Shown piece after piece: positions 8,783 to 14,938 of a stretch of 64,000 bases of DNA. Both the position numbers and the translations under genes were made by a program. The stretch spans positions 1,860,001-1,924,000 of the forward strand of contig NZ_CP009505.1 of assembly GCF_000970045.1 (NCBI RefSeq), read 5' to 3'. Below the pieces are notes generated by a model. It searched no databases, had not been told where the DNA came from, and was given only the letters and a program-made list of their open reading frames with translations. How positions within the stretch are numbered: position 1 is the stretch's first letter; every line of letters starts with the position of its first letter. Source of the stretch: Methanosarcina sp. MTP4. Lineage in GTDB: Archaea; Halobacteriota; Methanosarcinia; Methanosarcinales; Methanosarcinaceae.

Positions 8783-9211
8783 GGGGAAAGCCCCCACCCC
8801 CTAAGGGTGAATAACATTAATGATTCATTGGTGCACATTTTTTAGCACAAAACCTGTTTCTTTTTTTACCTGCAAAGGGTTTCTAAATGTGCAGATTTAG
8901 AAACTTTTAAGGTTTTTAGGTGAGGTAGCAATAAAAACGGCCAGGCAAAACATTTTTTAAAAGGTATAGTCAGCAAAATAACCGGGTACAGGGTTTCCCA
9001 TAGGTCAGACTCTACGCCTTCTTCTCTGGGGCCCTGGAACACTTCCGCGAGGTCTTGCGGCCTAGCCGAAGGTAAAAGTAATCCTTTTAATCCCGAGCGT
9101 ATACAGGTATGTAACCGGCTGGCGATGTTTCAATTATACAGATATCTGAAGACATAACTTTAAGAAAAGTAAAAATTAGTGAACTACTGATTCTCACGTT
9201 ATGCTTTTAAC
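8783..9211. other. Intergenic with a GC-rich segment
   Basis: Mostly AT-rich. A GC-rich stretch at about 8985-9085 stands out. On the minus strand it can be read without stops as a short peptide and contains CTATGGGAAACCCTG, loosely like the CCCTATGGAACGTGGGG found just after tnpB at 22.64 kb. It may be a relic of an IS200/IS605 right end, but the match is weak and I do not call it as such. Confidence 0.3.
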
Positions 9212-9941
9212 CTACACTTCATCCAGGTATCTCTGCAGCTTATCTGCAAGTTTTCCAATATGAATACCATCAACAAATGCATGATGAACCTGGACTGAAA
9301 ACGGCATCATAAGTTTGCCTTCTCTTTCATGATATTTACCCCAATCAAATATGGGCTGCGCTTTTTCCCGATTTCCAAAATCCGTGTGCGAAATATGCGT
9401 AAATGTTATCCACGGCAGGGCAGAGAATTGATATACATCATTTTCTACAGGTCCTGTAAAGTGTTCTTTTTGATTTTCTGCCGTTACGACTGCCAATTGT
9501 ACAAACTTCTCAATCGTATCCTGCATGGGAACATTTACTACCTTAAATAATTCTGTTTCTTTATCCAGATATGTAAATGATTTATCAATGGATTCATATA
9601 ACACAACTTCACCATCAAGAAAACGATACCGAAATTCCTCGATTTCATTTGCGCATTTCGTAACAGCAAATATAAACGCCATCGTAAATGGCCAATTATT
9701 TTCGGCTCTTCGTCATTCTCGATGGATTAGGTGATTTTCACTTCAAGCCCATGTTGTTTTTTGTGATGGCTTCCCACACAAGACAACGAAGAGCCTTATT
9801 TTCTTTAACGTGCTTTTTAAAATTTGTCACATCAAGTTCAAAACTCACACAATATTGAGGCTGCACAGCGCTCCTGTATATTTGACAATACTCTTTTCTT
9901 TTCCATGTTTCAAAATCTGTTATCTGGTATCTGTTTCCCAT
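9212..9941 (-). pseudogene. Chloramphenicol acetyltransferase gene disrupted by a MITE
   Basis: Type A CAT-like gene in two pieces. The N-terminal piece (9941 to 9738) reads YQITDFETWKRKEY and DVTNFKKHVKEN before leaving homology. The C-terminal piece (9682 to 9212) has EIEEFRYRFLDGEVVLYE and the active-site motif HHAFVDGIH. A 92-bp element (9704-9795) with 8-bp duplicated flanks lies between them. Removing the element and one duplicate (100 bp) joins the pieces in frame as KENNWPFTMAFIFAVTK and gives a 209-residue protein, normal for the family. GAAGGTG precedes the ATG at 9941. The family acetylates chloramphenicol or other acceptors; this copy should be inactive. Confidence 0.9.
9704..9795. 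mobile_element. 92-bp MITE with 10-bp TIRs and 8-bp TSD
   Basis: The element begins GGCTCTTCGT and ends ACGAAGAGCC, a perfect 10-bp terminal inverted repeat. It is flanked on both sides by TTATTTTC (9696-9703 and 9796-9803), an exact 8-bp target duplication. The interior is too short to code. GGCTCTTCG-type ends with an 8-bp duplication fit the ISL3 family, so it is probably a non-autonomous derivative moved in trans. No autonomous partner is present in the window. Confidence 0.9.
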
Positions 9942-10591
9942 AGTTTACACCTTCGTTCAACACAATCTACATTACGATATATTTCCTTTTTAGTTTCACG
10001 ACCTATTTTCGCTATAGATCTCATACATTACCGTTTCCTTAAGCCGTTTTCCTGACTCTTACCGCTCCACCTCGTGCCATGTCCCTTTGAGATACAAATA
10101 TTCAGATGTTAAAAGCTTGGGGAAAACAGGCCGCTTCCTTGATTCTTACTTGCTAGGGGTTTAACATACATATGCGTCCAGAATTTCCAGCAAAATGGAC
10201 GTTTGCATTTCCATGTAATCATATTCGGTATAAACTGGCTCCTCCTAATTTAGGCTTTAAAAAAATATGGGTCAGCTATGGTAGTGGTCCTATAGTGGAT
10301 ATATATGCTCTCCGACAGGATCGGGGGGCTGGACCTGGGCTCGTGAATCTCCTAGGACGCAGGCGGGAAGGCTCCTTCAGTATATCTATCTGATTATCTA
10401 GAAAAGAGCATGAGCCCCAAACCTGGCCTGACTTACTGGATATATAACATTCAGTTCAGGACAGCTTCCCAGAATATCAAACAATCTCCTGAAATGTACG
10501 AATTGCGAGGATATGGGCTCGGTTTGGTGTGGTTTCCAAATTAGAAAATAGAATAGACTGGCATTTGAGCTATTTATGCAGGAGTGAAAAA
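9942..10591. other. Intergenic, no clear gene
   Basis: No supported gene. A 73-codon frame at 10172-10393 lacks a ribosome binding site. Its last third is unusually GC-rich for this AT-rich block (around 10310-10385) and could be a decayed mobile-element end or RNA, but no defined structure was recognised. GGAGTG at 10581-10586 is the ribosome binding site of the small frame at 10592. Confidence 0.4.
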
Positions 10592-10780
10592 ATGTTTAAA
10601 GATTTGGGTTTATTTTGTAAATCTGGGGGCTGCTCTATAGGATATTTGAAAGAGGAAAATGTTATCCTGACCTGTTAGAGCTGTAAGGAAATTGCTCATA
10701 GAATCAGGGAAACAATTCAGAAACTTGAGGTTACAAGTAGAACCATTTATTTTATACTTCAGCATCTTCAGTCATATTGA
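10592..10780 (+). CDS. Small zinc-ribbon-like frame with in-frame TAG
   Basis: ATG 10592 follows a good GGAGTGA site. The frame reads 28 codons (FCKSGGCSIGYLKEENVILTC), meets TAG at 10676-10678, and continues 33 more codons to TGA (SCKEIAHRIRETIQKLE and on). The cysteines around the amber codon form a C-x2-C pair whose first x is the TAG, after an earlier C-x4-C pair, so a four-Cys zinc ribbon would exist only if the amber codon is read or was once sense. This could be a pseudogene, a 28-residue peptide, or a pyrrolysine read-through product. The 3' end overlaps the convergent gene by 29 nt. Confidence 0.35.
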
Positions 10781-11747
10781 TGAAATTTGTTATTTCTGTA
10801 CTGTTTATTTCATCCCTACAAAAAGGATTAGGATAAAAGAAACAGTCACTACTGTGGTCAAGTATTAAAATTGCACTTACATCATCCATTTTATCTAAAA
10901 CAAATATTCCCTCCTCATTTATATATGAGTTATTTGATGAATTTGGAATCAAGGAATATTTACTCAAAAAGGATCCCCATCCTTTACTTATTGCCTTCTG
11001 GATTTTTATCCATGAATCACGAGTCTGCACATCAGTGTTAACTTTTTCCCAATCTTCGAGTTTCGATCTTTCGTAAGCCTCTTCTGGAATACCCATAGTG
11101 TTTGAACCAAAACAGCATATATTCCCATATAATATTTTTCGAATATCCTCGTCGTTAATTCCCCATTCATGAATCTCGATGGCAATAATAAATGGATTTT
11201 TTGTGAGTTCGCTGGGAAAATCTTTTACTTTATTTTTGCCATCTATTTGTTTGTTTTCTAAAAGTTTCTTTGATCCAGGGACAGGAACTTCAATCCATTT
11301 ATCAGTCAAATCTGAAGAAAGGAAGATAGATAAAAAGTCTTCAAATTCGGTTCTATTTTTGAGGCTAGTTACTTCTATGCATATCGTAGAATCATTGTCT
11401 ATGCAAATTATGTCTGGAGATTTGTATGTCTCACCTTTCTTTTTCTTAAAACGTGGATCTTTTTCAGATAATAATTCAACGTCATACTTATTATTCAGTA
11501 ATATTTTTGCAACTTTTAGCTCAGAAACTGTTGACTTAAATGTTTCATTGGTATCTACACTATCGAATTTTGAGTTAAGTCCTCTACATCCAAGCTGATT
11601 AAGGTCGCAAATTAAAGTTTCGACTTCTAAAAGTTCCTCATCTCTATCTTTGTTTTCTTCAAAAATTTTAATTTTAACGTCAGAACTTTTGAGCAAACAA
11701 GATAGTTTGGGACATTTCACATCCATATCATTAACTGTTGCAAACAC
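10752..11747 (-). CDS. Putative PD-(D/E)XK-like nuclease-fold protein
   Basis: 331-residue cytoplasmic protein of unknown function. The central region carries a restriction-endonuclease-like pattern: ELKVAKILLNNKYDVELLSE (helix with conserved Glu), then SPDIICIDNDSTICIEVTSL, which fits PD...(x)n...E-x-T/K with Thr in the place usually held by Lys. The missing Lys makes catalytic activity uncertain. The rest has no recognised domain. The listed start is GTG 11747 without a strong ribosome site; ATG 11726 is an alternative. It is AT-rich and sits in a block with GIY-YIG and HEPN-like genes, suggesting a mobile or defence-related role, which is inference. Confidence 0.6.
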   Translation of the reverse strand: MFATVNDMDVKCPKLSCLLKSSDVKIKIFEENKDRDEELLEVETLICDLNQLGCRGLNSKFDSVDTNETFKSTVSELKVAKILLNNKYDVELLSEKDPRFKKKKGETYKSPDIICIDNDSTICIEVTSLKNRTEFEDFLSIFLSSDLTDKWIEVPVPGSKKLLENKQIDGKNKVKDFPSELTKNPFIIAIEIHEWGINDEDIRKILYGNICCFGSNTMGIPEEAYERSKLEDWEKVNTDVQTRDSWIKIQKAISKGWGSFLSKYSLIPNSSNNSYINEEGIFVLDKMDDVSAILILDHSSDCFFYPNPFCRDEINSTEITNFINMTEDAEV

Positions 11748-11994
11748 GATGACGCCTTCGATAAATAATTCTATTTTTCCTTCTATTCTTTCTTATAAAT
11801 TATTTTCATCTATTATTAAAGATTCATACACAGGTTTTAAAGTAAAACCTGTGTGTTTTCTTTGTTTCCTGCTAACAATGTGTTTTTCTAGTCTTATCCT
11901 CATTTCTCCATAAACATAGTTTTTGAGTTCTTATTTAAAATTGACCCTGAATCTTAAATAAAATTATTAATATGTTGTAGTCAATTTGGTTTAT

Positions 11995-12732
11995 ATGGAA
12001 TGTCTTAATTTACTAGAAAAAGAAATAGAGTCGATAACAGAAGAAAGAAGAGAAATCTCAGAAGATATCCTTAGTATCTCTAGAAGTATCAGCGATAGTT
12101 TGTCCACATCTTTGCAAAATCATTGTGACAAAATGTTCGACATATGGATACAGGAATTAAATAATAATGGTCTATGTAAACATGAGAGCGAACTTTTCTT
12201 ACATAAAATACCTTATACGTCAGCATCAGGCTATAAAATCTATCCTCTTTTTAAGCAGCCAGGAATTTACCTTTGGGGTCGTGATGACATACCCCGATAT
12301 ATAGGCAAAACAGAAAAATCATTTGAAAAGAGATTATTTAACAGATATATACCTCGAAAAAATGGTACAACATATAAAAGTCCAACTCAATGTGGCATCT
12401 CTGAAATTTTAAGAGATTATTATTCTAAACCAAAATTAGGCGGCTTTAAAAAAAAGTTAGAAAGTTACGATAAGAACGATAAGAAAATGATTAAGGAACG
12501 GATCGAAAAAGACCTGAAAATAACAATACGATCATATGAACGCCTATATGGAGCATTAGATTTCTCACAATTCGAAAAAGAAAGTATCTGGTTTGCAATA
12601 CTTCCTTTTGAAGACACAAATAAAAAATTTATAGATATATTTGAAACCCTATTTATACACTCGGCTCAGAAATATAACAAGAAAAATGGGTATGATGAAC
12701 TGCTAAACAAAGGAAAAATAGACAGTGAATAA
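11995..12732 (+). CDS. GIY-YIG domain protein
   Basis: 245-residue protein. An N-terminal helical, coiled-coil-like region of about 55 residues (EKEIESITEERREISEDILS) precedes a GIY-YIG nuclease core near residues 95-125: PGIYLWGRDDIPRYIGKTEK then SFEKRLFNRY, giving GIY, YIG and the conserved Arg. The distal Glu (FIDIFETLFIHSAQKYNKKNGY) fits the family's metal-binding residue. GIY-YIG proteins cut DNA in repair, homing or restriction. ATG 11995 is chosen over an upstream TTG. It is divergent from the PD-(D/E)XK-like gene, with about 250 nt between them. Confidence 0.75.
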   Translation: MECLNLLEKEIESITEERREISEDILSISRSISDSLSTSLQNHCDKMFDIWIQELNNNGLCKHESELFLHKIPYTSASGYKIYPLFKQPGIYLWGRDDIPRYIGKTEKSFEKRLFNRYIPRKNGTTYKSPTQCGISEILRDYYSKPKLGGFKKKLESYDKNDKKMIKERIEKDLKITIRSYERLYGALDFSQFEKESIWFAILPFEDTNKKFIDIFETLFIHSAQKYNKKNGYDELLNKGKIDSE

Positions 12733-13367
12733 GGGTAAATCTTTTAGTGTTTCTTTCAAATAAATGAAAGATGGTAGCTGAATGTTTTAATTATAATTCC
12801 ACAATCTAGTATTTCAACCTACATTCGGCAGCAACAACATTTAAACATATGAATATTTTAGATCGCATTATTATTGATACAAATCTAAAAATCACTATCA
12901 ATATAACTAAATATTTAAAGTATTTTGGAATATTCCTCTTCCACTATGAACCTAAATTTTAGAGGATATTGTCAACAGAGCAAAGGAATTTACACTAAAT
13001 AAATTCACAAACTATAGTAATAATCGATAGCGGTAAAAAATAAAATGAATTTTTATGTTTACCTGCCGAAAGCAGGTTTCAACAACTAAGTTTGGATAAT
13101 TTAAGTATTTTTAAGGCGTTAGGGCAATGTTAGCAACAGGGAAAACAACTCAGGTAAAGACTTTGGATTCCCTTTCCACTAGATACTGTATGAACTAGAT
13201 TAAATTTAAACAAAATCGAAAAAGAAATAATTATGGACTTAAATACACCTAAATGGTGTAGAAATGAAAGTTAGAGCTTTAGTCTCCTGTATCCTGTTGA
13301 AACATTGACAGCATGCATTGTTGACTTTTCCTAGACTCTTATTGATTGGTTTTAAAGGGTGATGTGC
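12733..13367. other. Intergenic, AT-rich
   Basis: No gene found in 635 nt. A short hairpin, CCTGC-CGAAA-GCAGG, lies at about 13063-13077, and a CTTTCA/TGAAAG hairpin at about 12755 just after the GIY-YIG stop could act in termination. The 3' end contains AAAGGGTGAT, the ribosome binding site of the next gene. Confidence 0.4.
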
Positions 13368-14012
13368 GTGAAAGAATTTATTTTAGAGTCCCTTAATAGT
13401 ATTATTGATATGGATAATTTTATGGATAATTTTAGTCATTGCTCTTATGATAATGTTGAAACAAATTTTGAAATATCACCAACAGATTTTCTTACATTTG
13501 CTGAGAAAGATTTGACAGCTAAGTACGATCACCACTTAGTAAATTCATTATCTAATTCTAAAAGAGCTATTGATGCTCAATTGGATTCCTTATTAATTGG
13601 ATTTGGCTTATCTGAAAGATCGAAAAAATGGAGATTCCCCCAAAAAATTGATTTCTTAAATAAAGTAGGGGTAATTTCACCTAGAATTTTGACTAAAATC
13701 AACAAGAAAAGAAATCTTTTAGAACATGAGTACAAGAATCCAAGCGAAGAAGAAGTTGAAGATGCTTTAGATGTAGCCATACTTTTCATAAATTACACAA
13801 ACAAATATCTGTTTCAGGCAATTTCTGATTTTGGTTTCAGTTATGGGGATGGCGAAGGAAGGTATTTAAATATATTAGAACTAGATTGTATTAATTCGAA
13901 GCTAATCTTTTCATGCCCTTCTCTTGGAGCAGAGGTAGAAATAAAAGCTGACGAAAAAGACTATGATGAATACCTGAGATTTTACCTTGATTTGTATAAT
14001 TTTATAAAGTAA
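13368..14012 (+). CDS. HEPN-like domain protein
   Basis: 214-residue, mostly helical protein. The motif KKRNLLEHEYKNPSEEEVED contains R-N-L-L-E-H, matching the R-x4-6-H signature of HEPN domains, many of which are RNases in toxin, abortive-infection and CRISPR-associated proteins. The helices before (RAIDAQLDSLLIGFGL) and after (ALDVAILFINYTNKYLF) fit the HEPN bundle. The C-terminal 60 residues look beta-rich. No nucleotidyltransferase antitoxin (MNT) gene is adjacent. GTG 13368 has GGTGAT 4 nt upstream; ATG 13362 and GTG 13359 are in frame but would overlap that site. Confidence 0.65.
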   Translation: MKEFILESLNSIIDMDNFMDNFSHCSYDNVETNFEISPTDFLTFAEKDLTAKYDHHLVNSLSNSKRAIDAQLDSLLIGFGLSERSKKWRFPQKIDFLNKVGVISPRILTKINKKRNLLEHEYKNPSEEEVEDALDVAILFINYTNKYLFQAISDFGFSYGDGEGRYLNILELDCINSKLIFSCPSLGAEVEIKADEKDYDEYLRFYLDLYNFIK

Positions 14013-14137
14013 AGACTGAAAATACAACAAAGGTAGACAAGGTATATAAGATTCCTCATAATCCTTAAATGAAATTCCTATAAACTCTAGAATCATTTAA
14101 TTGTAAAAAATAGCTTATTTTATACAGTTTATGTTTG

Positions 14138-14272
14138 CTTCAGGGTCACGATTCATTAACCTCTATGCGTCATTATCAGGATCTTGTCTTTTCAGATGAT
14201 GAATTAAGGAAGATAAAAAAAGCAATTAATAGCATGGGGCTTTTCTTTATAATGAACCTCCCCCAAAAGTAA
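14138..14272 (+). pseudogene. Tyrosine recombinase C-terminal relic
   Basis: An open stretch too short for most gene finders reads LQGHDSLTSMRHYQDLVFSD, then DELRKIKKAINSMG, and stops at TAA 14270. This fits the end of archaeal XerD/phage-type integrases: LxGH with the catalytic His, then S-x-x-x-Y with the nucleophile (here SMRHY). Nothing upstream in the frame matches the rest of the enzyme. It marks a lost integrated element near the right edge of the AT-rich block. Confidence 0.6.
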
Positions 14273-14307
14273 TGCGGTTAAATCAAGTTTTGGAATTAGC
14301 TAATTCG

Positions 14308-14748
14308 TTAATTATACAGTTTCCCATCCTGCAGTGTTTCCGGGAAGAAAATAGCTTGCATTAAGTTTCCAAAAAGTCGACATGAATCATTCATACCAGC
14401 ATGTTGCTTGCCATTCTTAAAAATGGTATCATTGCTGGCTCCTATTTCTATCTTTGAACCATCTCTAAGATTAAATGTGCATGTCGTATCAGCAGGTCCG
14501 CCATTGGCTTCTCCAAATCGAAAACTTAATACTTTTACAACATTGACCGCTTGCTCAATATCTTCATCATCAGTGAGAGTAATGGTTTTGTTTCCCTGCA
14601 TAAGTTGTACAGATGCGATATTATCTCTTCCCATTTCGTGAACAAGAGGGATACCATGTGCAAGATAAAAATATCCCAGTAAAATAATAGTTGTAATAAT
14701 AGTTGAAGTAACAATTGGCGTGATAAACTTTGTAATCTTTTTGATCAT
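14308..14748 (-). CDS. Single-pass membrane protein, unknown
   Basis: 146 residues. The N terminus is basic with one strong hydrophobic helix (about residues 11-31, PIVTSTIITTIILLGYFYLA), so the remaining 115 residues are probably outside the cell. That domain is beta-rich (ASVQLMQGNKTITLTDDEDI, TTCTFNLRDGSKIEIGASND) and holds two cysteines that could form a disulfide. It resembles small Gram-positive lipoprotein-type domains (DUF5301-like), but I am not certain. It stands alone. Confidence 0.65.
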   Translation of the reverse strand: MIKKITKFITPIVTSTIITTIILLGYFYLAHGIPLVHEMGRDNIASVQLMQGNKTITLTDDEDIEQAVNVVKVLSFRFGEANGGPADTTCTFNLRDGSKIEIGASNDTIFKNGKQHAGMNDSCRLFGNLMQAIFFPETLQDGKLYN

Positions 14749-14938
14749 TCTATTTTACTCCATCACATTTTACAAAGAATTTACTTTATTTTTCTCGTTA
14801 TTGGGCCTTTCCCTCCGGGAAGCTCTTTCAAATATCCTTTGTGGATCCAGAGAAAATTATTTTGGCTCGCAAGACCCGGATACATTATGCGCAAACCCCT
14901 CGTATAATTGATATACCTTTGAGACAATTCATACTGGT

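Follow-up and report, generated by a model that had tools for sequence, protein, structure and literature searches.

A 92-bp non-autonomous element with ISL3-type ends interrupts a CatA-like gene of Methanosarcina sp. MTP4

A gene of Methanosarcina sp. MTP4 (genome G000) that matches the Pfam family PF00302 and is encoded on the minus strand is cut in two by an element of 92 bp. The best overall explanation, which we consider highly probable, is that a non-autonomous element (MITE) was moved in trans by an ISL3-family transposase into this CatA-like gene. The MITE would have inserted into the 8-bp target TTATTTTC, presumably by cut-and-paste movement, with duplication of the target, and the enzyme function would have been lost with the interruption of the reading frame. 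The event is a well documented example of an ordinary kind. It provides a base-precise case of a non-autonomous element that disrupts an archaeal accessory gene, with uninterrupted sites in many relatives. Positions are those of the window, which is the whole stretch of 64,000 nucleotides that was analysed (contig NZ_CP009505.1, 1,860,001 to 1,924,000).

The element and the gene that it interrupts

The locus has the following features:
9796-9941, minus strand: CatA-like gene, 5' piece with 48 whole codons from the start codon at 9941
9212-9695, minus strand: CatA-like gene, 3' piece with 160 codons and the stop, HHAFVDG motif included
9738-9941, minus strand: truncated 67-residue ORF left by the insertion, with its stop inside the element at 9738
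9212-9682, minus strand: 156-residue ORF from an internal ATG (9682), without the N-terminal part
9704-9795, plus strand: non-autonomous element (MITE) with ISL3-type ends, 92 bp
9704-9713, plus strand: left terminal inverted repeat GGCTCTTCGT, from the repeat search
9786-9795, minus strand: right terminal inverted repeat, ACGAAGAGCC on the plus strand, from the repeat search
9696-9703, no strand: target duplication copy 1, TTATTTTC, a single copy in relatives without the element
9796-9803, no strand: target duplication copy 2, TTATTTTC, a single copy in relatives without the element

The segment 9696-9803 is composed of TTATTTTC, the 92 bp of the element (GGCTCTTCGT...ACGAAGAGCC) and a second TTATTTTC. 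The repeat search returns a single inverted pair (9704-9713 and 9786-9795), complementary at 10 of 10 positions. The borders proposed in the sequence-only reading of this DNA (92 bp, perfect inverted ends of 10 bp, 8-bp duplication) are confirmed to the base. The element has no genes of its own and codes for no transposase. It is assigned to the MITEs because it is short, lacks a transposase gene, has inverted ends and a flanking duplication, belongs to a multicopy family and has ends related to those of an autonomous element. The closed 4.21-Mb genome has a single site with its pattern, detected on both strands as the pattern is a palindrome; the same pattern written backwards, used as control, has 0 occurrences. 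A chance repeat is rejected on these counts and on the duplications that flank members of the family beyond the level of crossed pairs (see below). The folded single strand of the element is stable (z -3.74), which may be explained by the inverted ends alone. The region 9000-10700 has no Rfam match and no tRNA was found in the window. Searches for a carrier of the element gave no plasmid match and, with a degenerate core pattern, 0 viral contigs.

The interrupted gene consists of 48 whole codons, one codon straddling the junction, 160 codons and the stop. Subtraction of the insertion from the gene length (730 - 100 = 630) leaves 210 codons, i.e. 209 residues, a size also found in nine of ten uninterrupted relatives (the gene of G001, the nearest relative, has 222 codons); the earlier proposal that removal of 100 bp joins the pieces in frame agrees with this. 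Both pieces score above the PF00302 gathering cut-off of 23.5 bits, with profile positions 3-47 in the 5' piece ORF (E 2.4e-7, 31.4 bits) and 53-205 in the 3' piece ORF (E 1.4e-26, 94.2 bits). Apart from the element, they are open and undamaged. The element supplies an in-frame stop, so that the CatA-like frame ends after 48 native residues and an ORF of 67 residues remains. According to a protein search the gene is the sole copy in G000, and the insertion very probably inactivated it.

Almost the whole of the G001 orthologue can be aligned with type A chloramphenicol acetyltransferases (CatA1, PDB 1noc, E 4.9e-34; type 3, 6x7q), and it carries the HHA..DG motif. It differs from them in its score of 146.5 bits, under the NCBIfam CatA equivalog cut-off of 270 bits, and the 3' piece shares about 32-33% identity with plasmid CatA1. 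The score under the cut-off is the reason why the gene is filed as CatA-like only: it should be called CatA-like, with chloramphenicol acetyltransferase as a putative function. The term "CAT gene" of the first reading is thus kept for a CatA-like gene of PF00302 and given up for a tested function.

Uninterrupted sites and copies of the element in relatives

By protein search, 23 of the 111 family genomes, G000 included, have the CatA-like gene whole or in pieces. Seventeen loci from gene-bearing genomes were compared with the initial 25 kb of the window, the gene pieces of G101, G108, G116, G023, G010 and G128 lying outside this comparison. One locus (G123) stops short of the site. The other 16, from 15 genomes (G127 twice), span it and all of them lack the element. 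In 13 of the 15 genomes (G001, G103, G104, G105, G106, G107, G109, G110, G111, G115, G125, G127, G129) the alignments of the two flanks share exactly 8 bases of the relative, equivalent to one target copy; the overlap is 7 bases in G112 and 3 bases in G114, which has a small difference at the site. The uninterrupted gene whose search in relatives had been advised is therefore present in 15 of 15 site-spanning genomes, which rejects an old shared insertion. In G001 the gene is in the same place and the neighbouring blocks are colinear with the window on both sides, so that its site is the orthologous place. G106 and G109 have CatA-like fragments that stop a few bases beyond the target; as the element is absent there, they were not taken as evidence for an insertion hot spot.

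Some of these loci have additional particularities. G106, G109, G114 and G127 (L105, L107, L110, L122) carry two or more CatA-like copies or fragments within about 4-12 kb and in the same orientation, the aligned pairs being 85.6-97.5% identical, a pattern of decaying copies left repeatedly close to the gene's locus. In the window, about 4.8 kb (10060-14850) separate the CatA-like gene from the colinear block that follows it; this DNA is absent from G001, where the two flanking blocks nearly touch. The ORFs of this segment have 331, 248 and 217 residues, the first of them without a Pfam match.

The element or its relatives are found in 22 of the 111 family genomes, G000 included, with copy numbers that are lower bounds as at most 8 candidates were scored per genome. 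When 60 genomes were searched separately with the 92-base sequence, seven had matches, G000 included: one copy in G000, 10 matches in G001 (9 of full length) and 11 matches in G033. The search for other copies suggested at the outset thus yields none further in G000 and members in other family genomes, among them one G001 copy (L002) with 100% identity to the window copy, at a different site. From the fetched loci 51 distinct copies were gathered, and 40 full-ended ones were retained after 11 with poor ends were dropped. The 8-base flanks are identical in 13 of these 40 and agree in at least 7 of 8 bases in 15, against 2 (8/8) and 11 (at least 7/8) of 1560 crossed flank pairs from different copies; the remaining 25 full-ended copies miss a good duplication. 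The duplicated targets of the 15 copies are A+T-rich (87.5%). Most members of the family have 90-92 bp and there is in addition a form of 99-102 bp. Among the 16 full-ended 92-bp copies, G at position 18 together with T at position 54 is found in the window copy and L002 alone.

In G105 a relative of the MITE (L109:5556-5671) follows the 3' end of the CatA-like gene at a distance of about 65 bp. It has its own 8-bp duplication and is an independent insertion. Chance is a fair explanation of its closeness to the gene because G105 has at least 8 element matches.

The insertion sites of the window copy and of L002 are both lineage-specific. G000 has a stretch that matches the L002 flanks without the element; it is not a clean empty site, as similarity breaks off immediately ahead of the L002 target and is regained about 2 kb farther along. 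The G000 and G001 flanks are 82.7-93.1% identical at the CatA-like locus (blocks of at least 175 bp) and, at the L002 locus, 88-92% in two main blocks and 73% in a third, weaker block. The chance that 92 bp stay identical at 8% divergence is about 0.0005 by arithmetic. Full identity of the element amid diverged flanks means that the two copies share a recent source, and these comparisons make it likely that the element moved between the G000 and G001 lineages. It would have reached the host lineage by a recent transfer from a G001-like lineage, or from a source shared with one. An identical element at different sites of two clearly diverged lineages is evidence of short gene-less elements moving between methanogen lineages. 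The DNA of the CatA-like gene (window 9182-10052) is about 95% identical to that of G111 (L106), of another genus by the grouping used, and about 93% to that of the genus mate G001; the closer match to G111 suggests recombination or transfer of the gene.

The G000 gene has 9 synonymous and 4 nonsynonymous unique changes (two of the 4 in one codon), versus 67 and 53 in the ten uninterrupted genes together, a comparison that leaves out G114 L110 and G112 L050 by the extraction rule (L050 has a stop). On these numbers the gene gives no sign of relaxed constraint. Such absence of decay fits a recent loss and, with the full identity to the G001 copy, sustains the view that the insertion is recent.

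ISL3-type ends and competing explanations

The ISL3 transposase domain (PF01610) is found in 32 of the 111 family genomes. An intact ISL3 frame lies between GGCTCTTCGC ends in G002, a genome of the same genus; the element has a 31-nt inverted pair (77% complementary), an 8-bp duplication (ATCTTTTC) as long as that of the MITE, and the same GGCTCTTCG ends as the MITE. These ends, of about 24 bp, are shared by ISL3-family insertion sequences with intact frames (G002 L026, G103 L120, G113 L121), which differ from the MITE in their size of 1.3-1.5 kb and their transposase frame of 405 codons. For the left end of the MITE the best match is 20 of 24 bases, in L093 of G127, and for the right end it is 21 of 24, in L121 and L079, two loci that hold one and the same G113 element. 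With shuffled loci the left end reaches at best 13-17 matches in 25 trials. Matches of 20 and 22 bases in L113 were left out as they come from another MITE copy that adjoins an ISL3 element. The likeness does not extend beyond roughly the outer 24 bp, and the inner parts showed nothing in common. No autonomous element bearing both ends of the MITE was found. The ISL3-type character attributed earlier to the ends is upheld by their matches, the 8-bp duplication and the intact G002 element, and we infer that an ISL3 transposase was the agent that moved the MITE. The complete ISL3 element that was to be sought in G000 was not encountered: a search for an intact ISL3 transposase yields a 39-residue remnant in G000 and a 56-position remnant with a stop in G001.

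An ISL3-linked MITE is already known in Methanosarcina. Table 4 of PMC3852290 lists for Methanosarcina acetivorans an ISL3-associated MITE of 179 bp in 6 copies, with ISMac21 as partner, inverted repeats of 22 bp and direct repeats of 7 bp. Compared by description only, it resembles the element studied here in its host group, ISL3-type partner, multiple copies, inverted ends and direct repeats, and differs in size (179 bp versus 90-92 or 99-102 bp). Similarity to the partner insertion sequence at the ends only is also described there for archaeal MITEs.

That the element belongs to another transposon family and has GGCTCTTCG ends alike by chance is very improbable. This reading could draw on the missing autonomous partner with both ends and on inner parts without visible ISL3 match, but it has to account for end matches well above those of the 25 shuffled searches, for a duplication of the same length of 8 bp and for ISL3 transposase matches in 32 of the 111 family genomes. 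A less improbable reading, although still an unlikely one, places the transposition elsewhere and has the gene acquired with the element already inside, by recombination with another strain. The single copy and lack of an intact ISL3 transposase in G000 would agree with it, as would the hint of recombination given by the nearness of the gene to that of G111 (about 95%, against about 93% for G001). The gene is, however, in the same place as in G001, its interrupted form is found in none of the compared genomes, and such an acquisition merely shifts the event to an unsampled strain.

Loss of function could in turn be contested if the 156-residue ORF from ATG 9682 were made and working, perhaps through a promoter in the element. 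This ORF retains HHAFVDG and shows no decay, but its first 53 residues are missing, in a region where CatA also aligns with the intact orthologue, a recent event would account equally well for the sequence being retained, and the promoter is hypothetical; we regard a kept function as scarcely credible. Transposition of the MITE in trans, followed by inactivation of the CatA-like gene, is the preferred reading.

Split-frame ISL3 transposases

The transposase of 8 of the 11 compared ISL3 elements is encoded in two overlapping frames (G129 three times, G105, G122, G113 twice and G004; L116, L113-L115, L117, L118, L119, L029). The frames of the G105 element extend over about nt 96-929 and 854-1309. 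The three others (G103, G002, G113c) have a single frame of 405 codons. All eight split elements have one base fewer than the others at the same place, in a run of 8 or 9 A (about nt 865-885). In six copies that were looked at more closely, the zero-frame codons across the run have the right phase for a -1 slip (CAA AAA AAA in five, AAA AAA AAG in G122). Outside about 20 columns left out on each side of the run, neither half has a stop in six of the eight copies, while two G129 copies have 2 and 1 stops in the first half. Six pairwise comparisons among G105, G122, G113b and G004 give dN/dS values of 0.10-0.28 for the first half and 0.12-0.20 for the second (computable in five of six), indicating that both halves are under purifying selection.

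The A8/A9 run looks like a candidate site of programmed -1 frameshifting or slippage. An excerpt of PMC8211752 describes archaeal -1 frameshifting in some viruses and in a Sulfolobus gene that has A-AAA-AAT, and mentions transposases for pyrrolysine only; section 24 of PMC5009743 does not name them. No report of frameshifted ISL3 transposases in archaea was found in the literature searched, mostly as judged from titles and the beginnings of abstracts. It is conceivable, although rather doubtful, that one ISL3 lineage with MITE-like ends uses a programmed -1 frameshift or transcriptional slippage at the A8/A9 run, in which case spread of the MITE, including the identical G000 and G001 copies, would depend on recoding. 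The helper of the MITE may belong either to the split-frame or to the single-frame ISL3 lineage. With these related ISL3 transposases, recoding in archaea could be put to the test. Identical 8-base duplications flank the G129b, G129c, G105 and G004 elements, which therefore either transposed while having the split frame or were mobilised in trans.
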